Part shown: positions 17,687-27,356 of the stretch, piece after piece
How positions within the stretch are numbered: position 1 is the first letter of the stretch
How the letters are laid out: each line of letters begins with the position of its first letter
Position numbers and translations under genes: made by a program
The notes under the pieces: generated by a model
The model's input: the letters and a program-made list of their open reading frames with translations, nothing else
The model's database searches: none
Told to the model about the DNA's origin: nothing
Assembly: GCA_910575665.1 (NCBI GenBank)
Contig: CAJTFB010000028.1
Span: 1 to 53,098 of the forward strand
DNA length: 53,098 nucleotides
Source: Eubacteriaceae bacterium
GTDB taxonomy: Bacteria > Bacillota > Clostridia > Lachnospirales > Lachnospiraceae
Direction of reading: 5' to 3'

Positions 17687-19606
17687 ATGAAAACAATACA
17701 AGAAGAAAATTCAACCAAAAAAGATATACAGGCACTGCTTCCCATTCTAATCGCATTATGCCTGATTCCTCTTGTCATATTGACCAAGGACTATCAGACA
17801 GAATTCAGCAAATTTTCCTGGTTTAACAACACAGAACTCAACCAGATCGATTCCTTTGAATATGCCAAGGGTATTCTGGTCATCATTATGGGAGCCATCG
17901 CTGCAACAGTCATTGGCTTTAGCGAATACGGAAAAATTCAGAAGAAGAAACGCCTTTTTGAACATGCAGATTTAAAAGTTATTATACTATTGGCAGTATA
18001 CCTGATCATGGTAATCATCTCTTCTCTTTTCAGTGAACACTCCAATCTTGTCTTTCACGGTGGCGGATACGGACAGTGGCAGACGATGTGGGTTCTTCTA
18101 GGTTATGGAATGCTTTTTTTGTATGCATATCTTTTCATCAACTCTGAAAAAAGAGGATTGCTTACCATTAAATTTCTTATGATCACTACGGGAATACTGT
18201 CTCTGATGGGTGTTCTCCAGACGATGGGACACAATCCCCTCAGCTGGAAATGGGTACAAAATATCATTACAAGTCAAAGCAGCGTAGAAGGCATCGATTT
18301 TAAAGAGGGAGTATCCAACGTTATCCTGTCTTTCAATAATCCTAACTACGTCGGTCCCTATATAGCACTTATACTTCCTATTGCAGCAGCTTTTATTTTT
18401 CTGCAAGTATTTGATGATAAAAGAAAAGACAATGCGGCAAAAATAGCAGGAGCATTGATCCTTATTGGGCTTGTAAATACACTGATTGGATCCTCTTCCT
18501 CTGCTGGTATTATCTCCGTTCTGGCAGGTGGCATTTTGGCTCTGGTCCTGATCCTATCCGGTATATTCTGGGGAAAACAACCAGAAACAGAGGAAAAAAC
18601 AGATTTTGATGAGCAACCCCATAAAAAAAGTAAGAGGGGCCTTATTATGGGCCTTATTATTGGCTTGTGCTCCATCGCTGTGCTGATCACCGTAGGAATC
18701 TTCTCTTTTCGAAGTAGTTTATTTCAGAACACCATCAATAAACTATTGGAAGGTGGAAACGATACAAGAAATGTCGCTTCTATTGTCAATAATAAAGCAG
18801 ATGAACTAGATATTACCCTGCGGAATGATACCCGTTTCACTCTAGCGCCAAAGGTAGATGCAAATGGTCAGTTTACGATTACTGCCTATGACGACTCGAA
18901 GAAACCTATCAATATTCAGCAGACATCTGAACAGGGTATTTATACATTATCCGACGAGCGTTTTTCTATGATCACACTGGCCGTTAATAATTTTAGTATT
19001 GAGGACCAGGTATATTCTGGCTTTAAAATTAACGACGCCCCCAATCGTATCTCCTGGACTTTTGTGTTTAAGGATGGCAAGTGGAGATATTACACTCCTT
19101 TTGGAAAATTTACCCGACTTCATAAAGTGGAAAGTTTTGGATTTAAAAATTATCAGAACATTGCGAACCGTCGTGGATTTATCTGGTCACGTACTATTCC
19201 TCTGATGAAGGATTACTGGTTTAAAGGAATTGGGCCAAACGCCTTTATCATTGCCTTTCCAAATGATGACTTTGTGGGATCGAAGCGCGTAGACGACACT
19301 ACTACTCTTGTAGACAAGCCTCATAATGCTTTTCTACAGATCTATATACAGACTGGTGGAATATCTGCCTTAGCTTATGGGGGACTCTGGATTCTCTATA
19401 TGATTGGTGGAATTCGTATTTTCTGGCGCAAGAAACAATATCGTAACATTGATATGATAGGACTGGGACTTCTGGTGGGAATCTTCGCTTTTGCTGTATC
19501 GGGTATTACCAATGATACAATCATCGGCACACAGGTGATTTATTGGACATTACTGGGCACCGGATATGCGGTAAACCGCATCATCCGGTTAAAAGAACAG
19601 CAATAA
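17687..19606 (+). CDS. O-antigen-ligase/Wzy-like polysaccharide polymerase or ligase
   Basis: A 639-residue polytopic membrane protein with about eleven to twelve hydrophobic helices. The late segment GIGPNAFIIAFP, followed by DKPHNAFLQIYIQTGG, is the conserved periplasmic-loop region of O-antigen ligase/polymerase proteins; the PHN-type His is visible. Between helices, residues about 350-480 form a soluble beta-rich insert (with NDTRFTLAPKVD and WTFVFKDGKWRYY). This is unusual in length for the loop. It likely polymerises or transfers lipid-linked sugar repeats outside the membrane. The sugar transferase gene follows at 30 bases. Confidence 0.82.
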   Translation: MKTIQEENSTKKDIQALLPILIALCLIPLVILTKDYQTEFSKFSWFNNTELNQIDSFEYAKGILVIIMGAIAATVIGFSEYGKIQKKKRLFEHADLKVIILLAVYLIMVIISSLFSEHSNLVFHGGGYGQWQTMWVLLGYGMLFLYAYLFINSEKRGLLTIKFLMITTGILSLMGVLQTMGHNPLSWKWVQNIITSQSSVEGIDFKEGVSNVILSFNNPNYVGPYIALILPIAAAFIFLQVFDDKRKDNAAKIAGALILIGLVNTLIGSSSSAGIISVLAGGILALVLILSGIFWGKQPETEEKTDFDEQPHKKSKRGLIMGLIIGLCSIAVLITVGIFSFRSSLFQNTINKLLEGGNDTRNVASIVNNKADELDITLRNDTRFTLAPKVDANGQFTITAYDDSKKPINIQQTSEQGIYTLSDERFSMITLAVNNFSIEDQVYSGFKINDAPNRISWTFVFKDGKWRYYTPFGKFTRLHKVESFGFKNYQNIANRRGFIWSRTIPLMKDYWFKGIGPNAFIIAFPNDDFVGSKRVDDTTTLVDKPHNAFLQIYIQTGGISALAYGGLWILYMIGGIRIFWRKKQYRNIDMIGLGLLVGIFAFAVSGITNDTIIGTQVIYWTLLGTGYAVNRIIRLKEQQ

Positions 19607-19636
19607 CTAATACTGATATAAAAACAGAGGTGTACC

Positions 19637-21058
19637 ATGAGAAACTTTGATCCATATAAAAAGACAATTCTGTTCTTTTTATCCCTGCTCAATATCATTT
19701 TGATGACGATACTGTTTTCTTATTTCTGGTATCACTATTTTGCAGAAACGATGTACACTTTTCGATTTTACCGAAGAGGAAACTATGTCGTCATCATTTT
19801 GTATGCTGTGTTCCTCATTTTCTTTACCCGTATGTACGGCGCAATGAAAATAGGACAATTGCGTCGTATAGAGGTTATTTTATCCCAGTATCTCTCTATA
19901 TTTATTTCAAATCTGATCACATATGTTATCATTTCCCTGTTGGCATTCCGTTTTGTCAACTTAATCCCCATGCTCATTATGACGATGGGTGATTTTGTAA
20001 TTACTACTCTATGGACCTTTTTAGCAGGACGAATCTACGGACGCATTTTTAAATCCTGGAAAATTCTTCTGATCTATGGAGACCGTCCCGCCACAGACCT
20101 TGTTTATAAAGTAGAGGAGAGGCGTGACAAATATGCCATTCACGACGCCATTAACGTAAATGAAGGAATGGAGGCAATCGCTGGTAAGGTAAAAGATTTT
20201 GAAGCTGTAATCATTGGAGATATTCCTTCCCATCAAAGAAATGATGTACTTAAATTTTGCTATGGAAATGGAATTCGGGCCTATGTCATTCCAAAGATAT
20301 CCGATATCATTATGATGGGCAGTGATCGGATTCATATCTTCGATACCCCGTTTCTTCTCGCCAAAGGATATTCTCTCAGCTTTGATCAGCGCTTTATGAA
20401 GCGGGCACTGGATATCTTTCTCTCGATTCCTATGATCCTGCTCTCTTCTCCTATTATGCTCATAACTGCTGCTGCAATCAAACTCTACGACGGTGGAAGC
20501 ATACTTTACCGCCAAACTCGCTGCACCCAAGAAGGGCGAACTTTTTCCATTATCAAGTTTCGTTCTATGGTTGAAGATGCAGAAAAAGATGGAATTGCCA
20601 AATTAGCCTCCTCCCATGACACCCGCATCACTCCAGTTGGAAAACTGATTCGTTCTACCAGAATTGACGAGCTGCCTCAACTCTTTAATATTTTAAAAGG
20701 AAATATGTCCTTTGTGGGACCAAGACCTGAGCGCCCGGAGATCATAGAGGATTACCGAAAAGAAATGCCAGAATTTGAATTTCGTATGCGTGTGAAAGCA
20801 GGTCTTACGGGCTTTGCCCAAATTTATGGAAAATACAACACCGTTCCCTACGACAAACTGAAATTAGATCTTTTTTATATCGAACACTATTCTCTTTGGC
20901 TCGATATAAAGCTTATACTCATGACAATGAAAATCATATTTAAGCGAGAATCTACAGAAGGTATTGATGATAAACAGACCAATGCACTAAAAGAGATGGA
21001 CGATTCTGATGTACACCAGGTTCTCCAAGAAATTTCAAATAAAAAAAGGGGCGACTGA
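19637..21058 (+). CDS. Undecaprenyl-phosphate sugar phosphotransferase (WcaJ/RfbP type)
   Basis: The 473-residue protein has four N-terminal transmembrane helices, a nucleotide-binding-like middle domain (about 145-250) and a C-terminal bacterial sugar transferase domain. That domain starts at KRALDIFLSIP and contains FRSMVEDAEKDG, DELPQLFNIL and GPRPERPE. It should attach the first sugar phosphate to the lipid carrier at the inner face, starting synthesis of an exopolysaccharide. The upstream O-antigen-ligase-like gene would act later. The stop codon lies within the following bidirectional terminator. Sugar specificity cannot be read from sequence. Confidence 0.93.
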   Translation: MRNFDPYKKTILFFLSLLNIILMTILFSYFWYHYFAETMYTFRFYRRGNYVVIILYAVFLIFFTRMYGAMKIGQLRRIEVILSQYLSIFISNLITYVIISLLAFRFVNLIPMLIMTMGDFVITTLWTFLAGRIYGRIFKSWKILLIYGDRPATDLVYKVEERRDKYAIHDAINVNEGMEAIAGKVKDFEAVIIGDIPSHQRNDVLKFCYGNGIRAYVIPKISDIIMMGSDRIHIFDTPFLLAKGYSLSFDQRFMKRALDIFLSIPMILLSSPIMLITAAAIKLYDGGSILYRQTRCTQEGRTFSIIKFRSMVEDAEKDGIAKLASSHDTRITPVGKLIRSTRIDELPQLFNILKGNMSFVGPRPERPEIIEDYRKEMPEFEFRMRVKAGLTGFAQIYGKYNTVPYDKLKLDLFYIEHYSLWLDIKLILMTMKIIFKRESTEGIDDKQTNALKEMDDSDVHQVLQEISNKKRGD

Positions 21059-21072
21059 GAACGCCCCTTTAT
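21044..21072. terminator. Bidirectional terminator overlapping the sugar transferase stop codon
   Basis: AAAGGGGCG pairs with CGCCCCTTT around the loop ACTGAGAA, which contains the TGA stop at 21056-21058. A-rich and T-rich flanks on both sides suit termination in both directions between convergent genes. Confidence 0.8.
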
Positions 21073-21132
21073 AAAATCGCTTTCAGCGATACTTTGCACC
21101 ACAACCCAAAACTTTCCGCATTAAAAACTTTA

Positions 21133-21846
21133 TTATCGCAGAAGCACCAGTGGATTTATCGTCTCGCCCTTTTGCTTCACCTGATAATATAAGTTTGCAC
21201 CTTCCACTGAATAATACTTCGTAGGCTTGGCAATCTTGCCAATCACCTGTCCCTCACTCACTTCGTCTCCCTTGGATACGGTTACATCTTTCAGCTGACC
21301 ATAGATCACCTTAAAATCGTCGCCAATCGCCATCGTCACTGTCGTACCTGTCTCGTCATTTTTCTCTATACGTTTCACGATTCCAGCAGCACTTGCCTTT
21401 ACATCTTCTCCCACTTTACTGCCAATTATCAACGCCGGATTGGTCTTAAACTGTGACAGAGTTGGAAAAAATACAACCTTATCGGCACTGTACTCGATCA
21501 AAATATCTCCCTCCACGGGCCACAATAGTCCTGTTTCCTGGTCAAAATGAAGCCGGTCCTCAGCAGATACTTTTTTCATCGTTGTTTTTGCTTTTGGAGT
21601 TGGAGCTGGCGTTTTCTTTTTCACCTCAGATTTTACATGATCCGTTGTCGCTTCCTCCGTCTTCGGTTCCTGGGTTACTGCCGCCTCTGCCGGCGCCGTC
21701 GGCATGGGAGTTTCCTGCGCTACTGATAGATTGCCTTGATCTTTTCCGCTATCTGAAAAAACATTCATACAGATTGCGCCAAAAGCCACCAGGCACACGA
21801 TTCCGCAGATCAGCGATATATAAAATCCTTTTTCTTTATAAAACAT
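21133..21846 (-). CDS. Membrane-anchored M23-like protein with degenerate zinc site
   Basis: The 237-residue protein has one N-terminal transmembrane helix (about 8-28), a charged Thr/Pro/Lys linker (about 40-95) and a C-terminal LytM/M23-type beta fold. The fold is seen in KASAAGIVKRIEKN, VIYGQLKDVTV and GDEVSEGQVIGKI. The metal motifs are lost: the HxxxD position reads NPALIIG, and the final HLHF is NLYYQV. It is therefore probably a non-enzymatic binding protein, as Bacillus SpoIIQ is. A sporulation role is possible but not shown; no spoIID is adjacent. It stands alone, convergent with the polysaccharide genes. Confidence 0.8.
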   Translation of the reverse strand: MFYKEKGFYISLICGIVCLVAFGAICMNVFSDSGKDQGNLSVAQETPMPTAPAEAAVTQEPKTEEATTDHVKSEVKKKTPAPTPKAKTTMKKVSAEDRLHFDQETGLLWPVEGDILIEYSADKVVFFPTLSQFKTNPALIIGSKVGEDVKASAAGIVKRIEKNDETGTTVTMAIGDDFKVIYGQLKDVTVSKGDEVSEGQVIGKIAKPTKYYSVEGANLYYQVKQKGETINPLVLLR

Positions 21847-21989
21847 TTTATCACCTCAATTCAAGTTTTATCTATATTCTTGCCTGAATTCAGGTGATTA
21901 TACAATTTATAAGTAAATTACGCCTGGTAATTATTTCTGAAAACCAGGAGAAAGCGAGGTTCAAATTCGCGCCAAGACGCTAAGAAAGA

Positions 21990-22868
21990 TTAGTGCAGGA
22001 TCTTTCCATTTGCCACCTGCATCAGATGTTTCCCATAGCTTGAATTCCCATAGGAATTTGCTTCCTCAATCAGTCTATCCCTGTCAATCCATCCATTTTT
22101 ATAAGAAATTTCTTCTACTGCAGAAAGCATAATACCCTGTCTTTTTTCAATAACACGAACAAAATCACTGGCATCTGCCAAAGCATCCATCGTACCGGTA
22201 TCCAGCCAGGCAAATCCACGTCCCAATGTAACTACATTCAATTTTTCCTCTTCCAGATACATGCGGTTCAAATCTGTGATTTCCAGTTCCCCCCGCGCTG
22301 ATGGTTTTACTTTTTTAGCCAATTCTACAACCCTGTTATCATAAAAATACAGACCGGTAATACAATAATTCGATTTTGGAACCTTGGGCTTTTCCTCTAT
22401 GGATATCGCCTTTCCGTTTTTATCAAACTCCACAATACCAAAACGCTCTGGATCATCAACATAGTAGCCAAATACTGTAGCTCCTTCCTGCCTCGACGCT
22501 GCAATTCGCAGATGCTGCCCAAGCCCGCTTCCGTAAAATATATTATCTCCTAACACCATGGCACAGGAATCTCCATCTATAAACTCCTCACCAATTAAAA
22601 AGGCCTGCGCCAGCCCATCCGGACTAGGCTGTACTTTGTATTCCAAATGCATTCCAAGACGGGAACCATCTCCTAGAAGGCGTTCAAAATTTGGCAGGTC
22701 CGTCGGCGTGGAAATGATTAGAATATCCCTGATGCCTGCCAGCATTAATGTAGAGAGCGGATAATAGATCATAGGTTTATCGTAAACCGGAAGAAGCTGC
22801 TTAGAAGTCACTTTCGTCAAAGGATACAATCTTGTCCCTGATCCTCCTGCTAATATAATGCCTTTCAT
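21990..22868 (-). CDS. rfbA: Glucose-1-phosphate thymidylyltransferase
   Basis: RfbA makes dTDP-glucose from dTTP and glucose-1-phosphate, the first step to dTDP-L-rhamnose. The 292-residue protein has the nucleotide-binding [11 protein letters not shown], the [16 protein letters not shown] stretch, LGDNIFYG and the sugar-binding GLYFYDN. All are standard for the family and full length. The rest of the rhamnose genes (rfbB, C, D) are not in the window. It lies near the polysaccharide genes but on the opposite strand. A perfect palindrome lies in its 5' leader. Confidence 0.97.
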
Positions 22869-22973: not shown

Positions 22974-25379
22974 TTACTCTAATACTGGCTGCATTGTTCC
23001 GTTGTTGATGTCAATCGCCATCTGCATGAGTTTCTTATAATAAGCTGCCTGAGCCGCATTTCTGGACTCATCGTAGTTCTTGATGGTCAGCTCGGTAAAC
23101 TGAACCTGAAGTCCTAAATCTGTGAACTTAAATACAGCATTTGGGATACTGTCAGCAGTTGCCTTTTCCGTTGGAAGAAGAAGATCGTCTCTAAACTCAC
23201 TTGTACTGCTTCCAAGATAACACTGCATACCTACACCATCGATCAAATCGCCTTTTCCTCTTTCGTTTCCGAAAGCTTTGATGCTCTCAGCCAATGCACA
23301 GATCGCATCGCGCTTATTTCTCTGGAAGCAGCCAAAGTCATTATAGAAAAGTTTGATGTTAATGTCACGATTTGGATACAGCGCTTTCAGCTCATCCACT
23401 GCTTCTCTTGCAAAGAGGAAGGAATATTCTACATAATCACGTCCAATGGTATCATAGAAGAGGTTGTTATTGATCTGGATCTTACGATCATCACCCTTTT
23501 CATACTGACCATTTCCTGTATCAATTGCTTCGTTTACAACATCCCATGTGTGGATTGTTCCAGGATATTTCTCTTCGAAATACATAATTGCCTGTTTAAT
23601 AATACTTCTCAAACGCTCCAGCATAACTTCCTTACTTGCCAGTGGTTTTGTAGTATCATAGTCTTCATGGAAGAAGAATTTACAGTTTGTATCCATATTA
23701 GAATCACATACGATCGTATGTCCACGAACGCCAATACCATTCTCATACGCCCATTTAACCATATTCTCTCCACTGAAATCTTTTCTGAGAACAGGCATGC
23801 CGTCTCCATTTGCATTTGCAACCGTAGCATCCTGATCAAGAAGCCCATACAATTTCAGATCGTTGTCAATGGTCATACTTGAGAAATGTTTGTTAAGTAC
23901 AGCCTTATAACTCTCATCTTTGAAGTTCGAATTTGAAATCACACCACCAATGGTGAATCCGAACTTATCTTCTGTATTCTCATAAAGCGGAGAATATTTC
24001 AATGTCTCAGCGGACGCATCCTGTCTGTCGGAAGCAATCTCTGTGACCTTTACATCTTTAATATAGAAATCATCATGAGTTGTAGTATTTCCATACCAGT
24101 TCATACATACATAGATCTTTGCTGCATTCACTCCGTTAATGGAGTAGTTTGCTGCAAGAGTCTTCCAAGTGCCGGATGTCACTCTCTCCTGAACAAGCAT
24201 CGGTCTGTCATTTGCTTCTTCACCATTTTCATCTACAAATAGGATCTGTCCATAGAAGGCGCTACCGTTATGAGTAGGAGTATTATGTCTTACGTCAATA
24301 GAGATACGATAGTCCTTAGAAGGATCTGTGAGGTAATCTGTGATCTCAATCTGAATTCCATGCCAGTTATCTTTACGACCGGATACAAGTACAGCTGGTC
24401 CATTTCCACTGTCTGTTGGCTCCAGAGTACCAGCATCAACAACTGTTAGCTTCTGGTCTTTGTTTTCAGAGGTCGTTCTGGAATTGAAATCTACCGAGTG
24501 ATCAACCATATCAAAATATTCTTTCTTATCCCAATTCAGCTTACCAGTGGAAACAATAGATTTTACGCTCTTATCGCTGGTCTCACCAATTGTATAAAGG
24601 GAGCCCTCTGTATCGGATGAATCATCTGCCATCAGTTTCATGCCACTAAGGCTCTGAGCTGTACTCGCTGTAAACAGGTCGTGTATAGACTTAAAGCTAT
24701 CCTTTGCGTCATACCACTTTGAAAACAGTCCTGAATAAGTTCCAAACTGAGTATAATCATATCCGGTTTCCAGATATGGATTATCACGAAGTCCCCAAAT
24801 TGTAATATTACTTATCTTAGGATCTTCGATGCTGCTCTTATGCTTGATTCGCTTTTCACCAGCATTAGGAGCGGCTGTATACTCTGGTTTTGGTCCATTG
24901 TCATCTGGCGTTGCCGTTGGATTTCCCGTTGTTCCCGCAGGTGGCGTAGTTGGCGCATTCGTCGGTGCAGCAGTCGGTGCACTGGTCACATTAGGGGCAT
25001 CCGTCGCCTTTGGTGTCGCCTTCTTCACGGTAACCTGAACTTTAAGACTTGTGGCTTTTTTCTTCCCCTTTAAAGTAAGTTTCGCAGTAATCGTCGCTTT
25101 TCCCGCTTTTTTACCGGTGATAGTAAATGCTGTTTTCCCCTTTTTCTTGACGGTTGCAATCTTAGTCTTACTGGACTTAACGGTAAGCTTTTTGACAGTC
25201 TTTGCCTTTACATTTTTAATTGCTACTTTTTTGGACTTTTTAACCTCTACTGTCGCTTTTTTCGTACTAAGTGCTGGTTTTTTTGCAGCAGATGAATCTG
25301 GCGCCTGCACACCAGCCATAGTAATAGCCATAGCAGCGATCAGCGTTTTGGCTAATGCACCTTTTACATTTTTGTGCAT
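22974..25379 (-). CDS. Secreted GH10 protein with apparently permuted catalytic domain and internal CBM
   Basis: An 801-residue secreted protein: signal peptide (1-32), basic Ig-like module (33-122), Pro/Thr linker (123-175), then an unusual order. Residues 190-235 (ISNITIWGLRDNPYL, ending SFKSIHDL) match strand beta-8 and helix 8 of GH10, normally the C-terminus. A carbohydrate-binding-like beta domain follows (about 285-450, CBM22/CBM4-like). Residues 470-800 hold beta-1 to beta-7, with acid/base E617 in WDVVNEA and nucleophile E763 in FTEL. The protein ends before the place of beta-8. Subsite motifs are altered: DNDLK for ENEMK and VCDSNM for VWHSQ. Function is xylanase-like, but specificity may differ. 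Confidence 0.85.
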   Translation of the reverse strand: MHKNVKGALAKTLIAAMAITMAGVQAPDSSAAKKPALSTKKATVEVKKSKKVAIKNVKAKTVKKLTVKSSKTKIATVKKKGKTAFTITGKKAGKATITAKLTLKGKKKATSLKVQVTVKKATPKATDAPNVTSAPTAAPTNAPTTPPAGTTGNPTATPDDNGPKPEYTAAPNAGEKRIKHKSSIEDPKISNITIWGLRDNPYLETGYDYTQFGTYSGLFSKWYDAKDSFKSIHDLFTASTAQSLSGMKLMADDSSDTEGSLYTIGETSDKSVKSIVSTGKLNWDKKEYFDMVDHSVDFNSRTTSENKDQKLTVVDAGTLEPTDSGNGPAVLVSGRKDNWHGIQIEITDYLTDPSKDYRISIDVRHNTPTHNGSAFYGQILFVDENGEEANDRPMLVQERVTSGTWKTLAANYSINGVNAAKIYVCMNWYGNTTTHDDFYIKDVKVTEIASDRQDASAETLKYSPLYENTEDKFGFTIGGVISNSNFKDESYKAVLNKHFSSMTIDNDLKLYGLLDQDATVANANGDGMPVLRKDFSGENMVKWAYENGIGVRGHTIVCDSNMDTNCKFFFHEDYDTTKPLASKEVMLERLRSIIKQAIMYFEEKYPGTIHTWDVVNEAIDTGNGQYEKGDDRKIQINNNLFYDTIGRDYVEYSFLFAREAVDELKALYPNRDINIKLFYNDFGCFQRNKRDAICALAESIKAFGNERGKGDLIDGVGMQCYLGSSTSEFRDDLLLPTEKATADSIPNAVFKFTDLGLQVQFTELTIKNYDESRNAAQAAYYKKLMQMAIDINNGTMQPVLE

Positions 25380-25414: not shown

Positions 25415-25452
25415 AAAAAAAGGTGCATACGCATAGGAATGCACCTTTTTTT
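25415..25452 (-). terminator. Terminator between two secreted Ig-like genes
   Basis: AAAAAAAGGTGCAT pairs with ATGCACCTTTTTTT across a 10-base loop. Both sides give U-tracts, so the 25506-27356 gene and the permuted GH10 gene are separate units. Confidence 0.9.
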
Positions 25453-25505: not shown

Positions 25506-27356
25506 TTACTCTGCTGGCTCCTCTACTGCATCTTTCTTTGCATTCAATACAACCTTATCGATTGTAATTACAAGGTCACCATCTGTAAGTGCTACAGAAT
25601 TCTGGAAGAGAAGCTTCAACATGTTGGAACCACTTACAAGTGTCTCAAGAGAACCTTCAGCAACAATTCCTTTACCTTCTGCCAGGCTGCTTCCCTTAAT
25701 GTTGTGAACGGTCACAAGACCTGTATCAGAAGCATCCGTATTGACAAACTGCAGGGTCAGGATTCCATCATCCTCTAAGGATTCACCCTTATAGGTAGCA
25801 CTACCAAACATCGTAATGTTTTCGTAGTTAGCAAGATCTACACCCTCAATCAGTTTTGTAATATCAATGGTTCCCTTTCCTTTACCCTGTGCGGTATCCT
25901 TAGCAATGGTAACTACATTATTCTCTTTCAGCTCTAATGTAATGTCTTCGATGACAGGTTTCTCAGCAGTTACAGTAATCTGCTTTGTAAATGTGACTTT
26001 CTTATCCTTCGTTGTAGTAATCTCCACAGACACAGTCTCTACACCAGCTGCTTTTGCAGTGATGGTTGCCAGTTTAGGATCATCTGCATTTGCTTTGAGC
26101 TCAACTACATCTGTTCCACCTGTGCTCCACTTAGCTTCTTTGATATCACCAACGATAGAAGCGTTCTTCACAACAGCCTCAGCAGTTGTCTCGTCTCCTA
26201 CTGCAATGGTTCCTCTGCCAAGTGCAACAAGTCCAGCTGGAGCAATACCTTCTGTAGCATCAATCTTATCGGAAGGTTTATCATTGCCATCTGTTACACC
26301 ATTTTTGCTTAATACACGAATGTTACCAACTTTATACTCGGTATTTGCACCCTTCACTCCATCCAGGATTGCAAAAATACTAAAACGAATCTTGTTGTCT
26401 TTGAGCTCCATATCTTCAAGTATTGCTGTATCAATCTCAAGCTCCTGATCTTCCAGAAGACCGGCATTGCTGAAGCTGATTGCATACTCGTCAACGGCAA
26501 CATTTTTAATATTTGTAAACTGATTTACAGGATCCCACTCATACAGCAACTCTCCTGGGAATGCATCCAGTGAATTGTCATCTGTGCTTCCTGCAAGAAG
26601 ATATACCTTCTTATTCTCCAGGTCCCCGGCTACAGCGTCAAAATCAAATTTTACACTGTAAAGATCTTTTACAGTAGATCCCTCAGGAAGAACAACATCA
26701 AAATAGGTGTATACACTACCATATTTTGCACTCTCATTGAGAATCAGATCAGCTGTACCATTCTCATCCACATTGAAGTAAGTCAGCTTAGAAGCTGCAT
26801 CACCACCAAGCTGGATATTTTTAATCGGATTAACCTCCCATGCCGGTGTAGGTGTAGGAGTCGGTTTCTTTGTCTTTACCGGTGTCTGTGTCGTCTGTGG
26901 TACATCTGTTGTAGCCGGCGGTGTTACAACAGGTGCTGTTGTAGGTGCCGTAGTAGGAACTGCTGTAGGTGCTGTCGTCACCTTTGGTGCCGTAGCATTT
27001 TTAACTTTTACTTTCAAAGTCAGCTTTGTAGCTTTCTTCTTTCCTTTAACTGTAACTTTAACTGTAACTTTAGCATTTCCAGCCTTTTTACCAGTTACAT
27101 TAAAAGCTGTTTTTCCTTTTTTCTTTACAGTAGCAATCTTTTTGTTAGAAGTTGTTACTGCAAGTTTTTTAACCTGCTTTGCTTTAACGTTCTTAATAGT
27201 TACTTTTTTGCTCTTTCCCTTAACTACTGTTACGGACTTCGCGGAAAGCTTCGCCTTCTTAGCTGCGTCAGCTTCCGGTGCTGCAGTTCCTGCCAGAGCA
27301 ACTGTCAGGGCAACAGCCATAACTTTAGCTAAAGTTCTTTTGAAATTTCTTTTCAA
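25506..27356 (-). CDS. Secreted multidomain Ig-like protein, probable carbohydrate-binding
   Basis: The 616-residue protein has a signal peptide (about 1-32), a basic Ig-like module (33-120) closely similar to that of the neighbouring GH10 protein, and a Thr/Pro linker (120-172). A beta-rich domain follows (about 175-350, starting NPIKNIQLGGDAASK), then a BIG2-like Ig domain (about 365-470), then a final beta domain (about 475-605). No catalytic motif is seen. By position between two polysaccharide-active proteins it may bind plant cell wall. The ribosome binding site is TTAGGAGG. Family assignment of the last domains is not possible by eye. Confidence 0.75.
   Translation of the reverse strand: MKRNFKRTLAKVMAVALTVALAGTAAPEADAAKKAKLSAKSVTVVKGKSKKVTIKNVKAKQVKKLAVTTSNKKIATVKKKGKTAFNVTGKKAGNAKVTVKVTVKGKKKATKLTLKVKVKNATAPKVTTAPTAVPTTAPTTAPVVTPPATTDVPQTTQTPVKTKKPTPTPTPAWEVNPIKNIQLGGDAASKLTYFNVDENGTADLILNESAKYGSVYTYFDVVLPEGSTVKDLYSVKFDFDAVAGDLENKKVYLLAGSTDDNSLDAFPGELLYEWDPVNQFTNIKNVAVDEYAISFSNAGLLEDQELEIDTAILEDMELKDNKIRFSIFAILDGVKGANTEYKVGNIRVLSKNGVTDGNDKPSDKIDATEGIAPAGLVALGRGTIAVGDETTAEAVVKNASIVGDIKEAKWSTGGTDVVELKANADDPKLATITAKAAGVETVSVEITTTKDKKVTFTKQITVTAEKPVIEDITLELKENNVVTIAKDTAQGKGKGTIDITKLIEGVDLANYENITMFGSATYKGESLEDDGILTLQFVNTDASDTGLVTVHNIKGSSLAEGKGIVAEGSLETLVSGSNMLKLLFQNSVALTDGDLVITIDKVVLNAKKDAVEEPAE

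Follow-up and report, generated by a model that had tools for sequence, protein, structure and literature searches.

The open reading frame at 22974-25379 on the minus strand of the window (the whole stretch of 53,098 nucleotides that was analysed) encodes an 801-residue protein, identified as a permuted GH10 from the reading frame and its Pfam matches, which is best explained as a GH10 that underwent circular permutation in nature, with a probability of about 0.85. The sequence places the cut between alpha-7 and beta-8, with beta-8/alpha-8 now ahead of a CBM, and the spacer and CBM covalently join the old C-terminus (alpha-8) to the old N-terminus (beta-1). The initial annotation had proposed such a permutation, in which a CBM stands between the two parts of the GH10; it gave the reading frame, strand, length and coordinates correctly, and its main proposal is now supported by profile comparison (E 6e-15), homologues and a tree.

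All parts of the protein are encoded on the minus strand. It opens with a signal-peptide-like start and a Lys-rich Ig-like domain (residues 1-122, 25014-25379, judged by eye), a beginning common to neighbouring secreted-looking proteins, followed by a Thr/Pro/Ala-rich linker (residues 123-183, 24831-25013) which homologue comparison shows to be fast evolving. The displaced beta-8/alpha-8 block occupies residues 189-236 (24672-24815; ISNITIWGLRDNPYLETGYDYTQFGTYSGLFSKWYDAKDSFKSIHDLF), close to the residues 190-235 originally picked out as a beta-8 equivalent ahead of the CBM, and is defined by profiles and by a strand and a helix in structure models. It contains W195 of beta-8 (IWG, 24795-24797), which is invariant in the nine permuted proteins and 18 ordinary subfamily members compared. 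A spacer from alpha-8 to the CBM (residues 237-295, 24495-24671), fast evolving by dN comparison, leads to a predicted sugar-binding CBM_4_9 domain of about residues 296-445 (24045-24494), whose Pfam match (PF02018) covers residues 322-427 with 41 bits against a cut-off of 25.9. The barrel from beta-1 to alpha-7 forms residues 467-801 (22977-23981), as delimited by Pfam and a GH10 profile, superposes on GH10 crystal structures and ends directly after alpha-7. C558 (23706-23708) aligns with a Trp that is found in each of the 18 ordinary subfamily members compared. The putative catalytic acid/base E617 (WDVVNE, 23529-23531) and nucleophile E763 (FTEL, 23091-23093) were located by motif, with the roles usual in GH10, and the nucleophile is followed by 38 residues, as first reported.

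The Pfam GH10 profile (PF00331) matches residues 469-793 with 152.9 bits (cut-off 22.1), covering profile positions 6-268 of 311. Ten GH10 matches are present in the genome, of which nine reach position 309 or 310, including the two ordinary GH10s within the window (309 and 310), and only the permuted one ends at 268. The earlier observation that the barrel stops where beta-8 should begin thus holds; downstream of the reading frame no beta-8 is encoded in three frames of the next 270 bases (reverse strand, 23100 to 22700). The Asp/Lys-rich tail that had been described after TIWGLYD in the ordinary proteins was not recovered, there being no distinct tail at that point.

A GH10 profile of 357 positions, built from seven ordinary GH10s of the same genome, matches the protein in two pieces of swapped order (310-355, then 2-312) which together tile the model. 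The same is seen in all nine permuted proteins, with model positions 305-312 to 351-355 near the N-terminus and 2 to 311-314 at the C-terminus, the two pieces touching or slightly overlapping at the seam. With the same profile both GH10 parts stand in the usual order in 52 ordinary entries, one of which (L009, first piece) is a fragment of another, L005. As the two pieces cover 2-355 of the model, all eight beta/alpha units are present by sequence, in line with the original reading of eight strands in permuted order, and their order is unusual in that beta-8/alpha-8 comes first. A further profile of beta-8, made from 35 ordinary GH10s only, recognises the N-terminal block of 9/9 permuted proteins with 15.9-41.3 bits, the best score among 1800 shuffled copies being 5.7. 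Across 221 distinct reading frames this profile has 54 further matches, all inside or after a GH10 barrel match; it matches before the barrel in the nine permuted proteins only and never in a reading frame without GH10.

The comparison of a profile of the block with that of the ordinary subfamily gives a probability of 98.4% (E 6e-15), with 42% identity across 50 columns; these fall on columns 315-365 of 366, the C-terminus of the ordinary subfamily. In the genus search a further 21 matches (E 9e-10 to 1e-4) fell within the part of profile A2 that represents the block; 20 lie at the C-terminal end of ordinary GH10s and the remaining one on an orphan reading frame. Free alignment of four ordinary beta-8 fragments to the permuted set put just one, the closest (L069), on the block, and those of three distant GH10s after the permuted C-terminus; the three fragments aligning outside the target were left out before the second structure model. 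A search of the PDB with the block profile alone yielded no significant match, the best of 11 being an unrelated receptor (E 0.62) and the other ten GH10 beta-8 strands (E 0.8-0.9), and in a search with a long query a second stretch of 7nl2 (residues 294-339) matched the block with an i-Evalue of 220. Taken by sequence, the two parts are homologous pieces of one ordinary GH10 in swapped order.

The same architecture, order and stop are found in nine distinct proteins, namely the protein itself and eight homologues, from 7/39 genomes of the genus, and the search for homologues of the same order that the initial annotation had called for was therefore productive. Full-length homologues are 57-95% identical to the protein from the block to the end, and the named records assign the hosts to uncultured Roseburia, Roseburia, Lachnoclostridium or Eubacterium sp. 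One genome (G024) holds three diverged permuted copies (L017, L041 and L042). GH10 matches in the genus sum to 177; those listed all end at profile position 297 at least, and the weakest matches, including the nine, lie outside that list. No full-length match to profile A2 outside this genome was found among the matches listed for 397 sampled genomes of the family or for 391 of the class, at most six candidates being scored in the genomes listed. A GTDB scan with two peptide patterns returned eight permuted loci, on contigs matching in length those already known, that add nothing to the nine proteins; as the patterns were taken from permuted proteins, it could find close relatives only. Among the class matches listed, with at most five scored per genome, seven GH10s end before profile position 290, one of them truncated at the edge of its contig; no significant beta-8 precedes the barrel in any of these seven.

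In a midpoint-rooted tree of the beta-1 to alpha-7 part, with 61 rows that represent the sequences fetched and not the whole genus, the nine permuted proteins form one clade (100/100). It sits within a group of 27 (100/97) that includes 18 ordinary members, and the remaining rows are ordinary as well. Because the nine form a single clade among ordinary GH10s, the ordinary order is likely to be ancestral and one change is enough; on these sequences a single origin of the permuted order would suffice. The best ordinary matches of the barrel and of the block come from the same small group: L050, L004, L086, L069, L022, L079, L021 and L084 match both halves, and L025 and L008 are in both top tens. 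This half-by-half comparison left out of both halves 17/52 ordinary entries without a simple cutting motif; these include the close L018-L020, and they were kept in the tree with their last 52 residues removed.

Two AlphaFold models (mean pLDDT 75.8 and 82.0) show seven barrel strands in the C-terminal part; in the block, residues 189-194 form a strand and a helix lies within 225-237. Four (L102, L104, L106 and L109) of eight distant GH10 loci from viral contigs deepened the alignment. Model quality is low in the loop that links beta-8 to alpha-8, with 10-residue means of 44-69 in one model, and the other falls to 34-69 over both the block loop and helix. GH10 structures can be superposed on the seven-strand part; VIA-align and Foldseek follow chain order along the barrel, a comparison that does not extend to the placement of the block. 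The block is expected to be seated in the beta-8 slot, where it would fold back within its own chain to close an eight-stranded barrel and supply the beta-8 Trp to the active site. In (beta/alpha)8 barrels the loop between alpha-7 and beta-8 lies on the side away from the active site, and the new termini would lie on this bottom face with the active-site face intact. The protein may be a secreted retaining glycoside hydrolase that acts on xylan-type chains, with its cell-side anchor, the Lys-rich domain, now joined at beta-8. The CBM would be tethered to the barrel on both sides, which should hold it in a fixed orientation towards the cleft.

The block might instead close the barrel of another molecule in a domain-swapped assembly, an improbable arrangement to which the separation of block and barrel by a long, fast-evolving spacer and a CBM lends some plausibility. 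However, no test result favours dimers, and a barrel closed by its own chain is the simpler arrangement, as the former ends of a GH10 can lie together: in one GH10 xylanase the N- and C-terminus are reported to be held together (PMC2893209).

Selection bears on a second alternative, in which the block would be left over from a second GH10 domain, as the initial annotation itself had allowed, and the main barrel would be an inactive remnant, incomplete with seven strands. Purifying selection acts on both block and barrel in 9/9 pairs compared, with dN/dS of 0.06-0.19 for the block (residues 185-236, 52 codons); the nine pairs share branches and are not independent, and the ratios of the deep pairs are rough since dS is high there. 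In the three deepest pairs (the protein itself with L017, L017 with L041, and L041 with L042) block and barrel evolve at equal rates, with a dN of 0.205, 0.199 and 0.182 for the block and 0.191, 0.183 and 0.209 for the barrel; the corresponding values are 0.391, 0.713 and 1.203 for the spacer and 0.307, 0.543 and 0.675 for the CBM. The block is slower than the barrel between the protein and L016 (0.125 versus 0.152) and between L015 and L016 (0.078 versus 0.149). A remnant would fit the faster change of the block in four close pairs (the protein with L012, L014 and L015, and L012 with L015; dN 0.025-0.060 on 52 codons versus 0.010-0.023 for the barrel), the duplication and loss that probably produced the order, and a 74-residue reading frame in another genome that joins Lys-rich sequence to beta-8. 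A dispensable leftover is nonetheless disfavoured, since purifying selection maintains the block and the C-terminus lacks a beta-8 that could stand in for it; with the catalytic residues kept, and the order retained in nine proteins from seven genomes, this alternative is less probable still than an exchange between molecules. An assembly or gene-calling artefact, in which a downstream beta-8 was lost by frameshift or misjoin, is of negligible probability, as nothing was found in its favour, the 270 bases beyond the stop are free of beta-8 in three frames, and nine proteins from seven genomes share the order and stop, with the same neighbours in six contigs over the length that each covers.

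Consistent with a permuted but complete GH10 enzyme, both catalytic Glu residues are kept in their motifs in the nine permuted and 18 ordinary proteins compared, and the permuted proteins also retain the Asn before the acid/base, the His, the Lys and the beta-8 Trp of their ordinary relatives; the functions given to these residues are the presumed ones for the usual motifs of GH10. The GHxxVW motif has Cys in 9/9 permuted proteins versus Trp in 18/18 ordinary subfamily members. All nine carry a three-residue insertion just after this site and Gln for His in alpha-7, and among the 27 proteins compared the Trp-to-Cys change and the insertion are specific to the permuted clade. The Trp-to-Cys change and the loop insertions may have affected activity, a reservation about the main reading. 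Other differences are older: the Met of VCDSNM, which replaces the usual Gln, and the Tyr after MQ. predate the permutation, being invariant in 13 aligned ordinary subfamily members, and the Asp of VCDSNM, which 3/5 of the ordinary members listed possess, predates it likewise. Of the subsite differences first suggested, the Trp-to-Cys change is thus specific to the clade, and the Met and Asp of VCDSNM are not. A permuted lineage with a CBM bridging the old ends and a remodelled active site, differing from its ordinary relatives in substrate or mode of action, is a tentative proposal, held at somewhat less than even odds.

It is proposed that the order arose by a likely tandem duplication of a CBM-GH10 unit, after which a new start in the first copy would have removed its front and a new stop in the second copy its tail. 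This route is suggested by a subfamily member (L021/L043) that has a CBM directly before an ordinary GH10 (matching query residues 323-792), the order that duplication needs. Traces of the alpha-7/beta-8 junction can be seen in NNGTMQP at the C-terminus and NAGEK before the block, compared with NSGEEKP in L050; both ends seem to keep junction residues, as duplication would leave, which is a weak hint from sequence. The orphan 74-residue reading frame mentioned above (L110, 1791-2012, minus strand, genome G031) fuses Lys-rich sequence directly to an ordinary-type GH10 beta-8/alpha-8. It looks like the internal-deletion remnant of a GH10 gene and shows that such modules arise, though apparently in an event separate from the permutation.

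Over the length available from each, five other contigs carry matches to the neighbours of the gene in the window. Upstream lies a reading frame at 25506-27356 (minus strand) for a secreted-looking protein of 616 residues with a Lys-rich start and no Pfam match over the cut-off; matches to it are found upstream of the permuted gene in 8/9 cases, those of L041 and L042 being partial only, and none beside L017 in the part read. The possibility that the block belongs to a general N-terminal domain was rejected, as this neighbour has the Lys-rich start without the block. Between the two genes a terminator-like hairpin and T run (25415-25445, minus strand), noted by eye, suggests separate transcription. 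Between the permuted gene and the two ordinary GH10 genes, Pfam identifies O-antigen-ligase-like, sugar transferase, nucleotidyl transferase and M23 peptidase genes (17687-22868), the order of which is kept in related contigs as far as they reach.

If true, the permutation, in a barrel family that is among the best studied, would make it possible to study how a (beta/alpha)8 barrel tolerates new ends and what role a doubly tethered CBM plays, with ordinary paralogues of the same genome as controls. It also shows that an enzyme with all its parts can look truncated in a profile search, and for enzyme design it points to the alpha-7/beta-8 loop as a place where nature has cut a GH10.

The closest known proteins are the ordinary GH10s of the same subfamily (L069 of Cellulosilyticum ruminicola, L050/L004, L022 and L021), with barrels about 39-42% identical for the nearest, a block 42% identical in the profile alignment and the same Met and Tyr in the active-site motifs; unlike the permuted proteins, they carry their beta-8/alpha-8 at the C-terminus and keep the Trp that is replaced by Cys in the permuted clade. 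Another known relative, Xyn10B of Clostridium thermocellum (2w5f/2wys), is not permuted; the superposition, whose aligned range does not include the displaced block, has an rmsd of 15-18 over 423-429 residues, which reflects a different orientation of the two domains. GH70, a permuted form with respect to GH13, belongs to another family and has another cut site, and no sequence relation is claimed. It is likewise a glycoside hydrolase whose catalytic domain was permuted in nature and which has relatives in the ordinary order (PMC9732880). Natural permutation of glycoside hydrolases is thus already known, and for GH10 none was found in the open-access literature as far as it was covered. Permutation in general is described as a source of false partial domains (PMC4432964). 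The same source reports 'domain atrophy' in a GH10 of Cryptococcus albidus, which also gives an unusual partial Pfam match; that protein is described as having lost beta-4 and two helices (PMC4432964), whereas the permuted GH10 has lost nothing and only moved its last unit.
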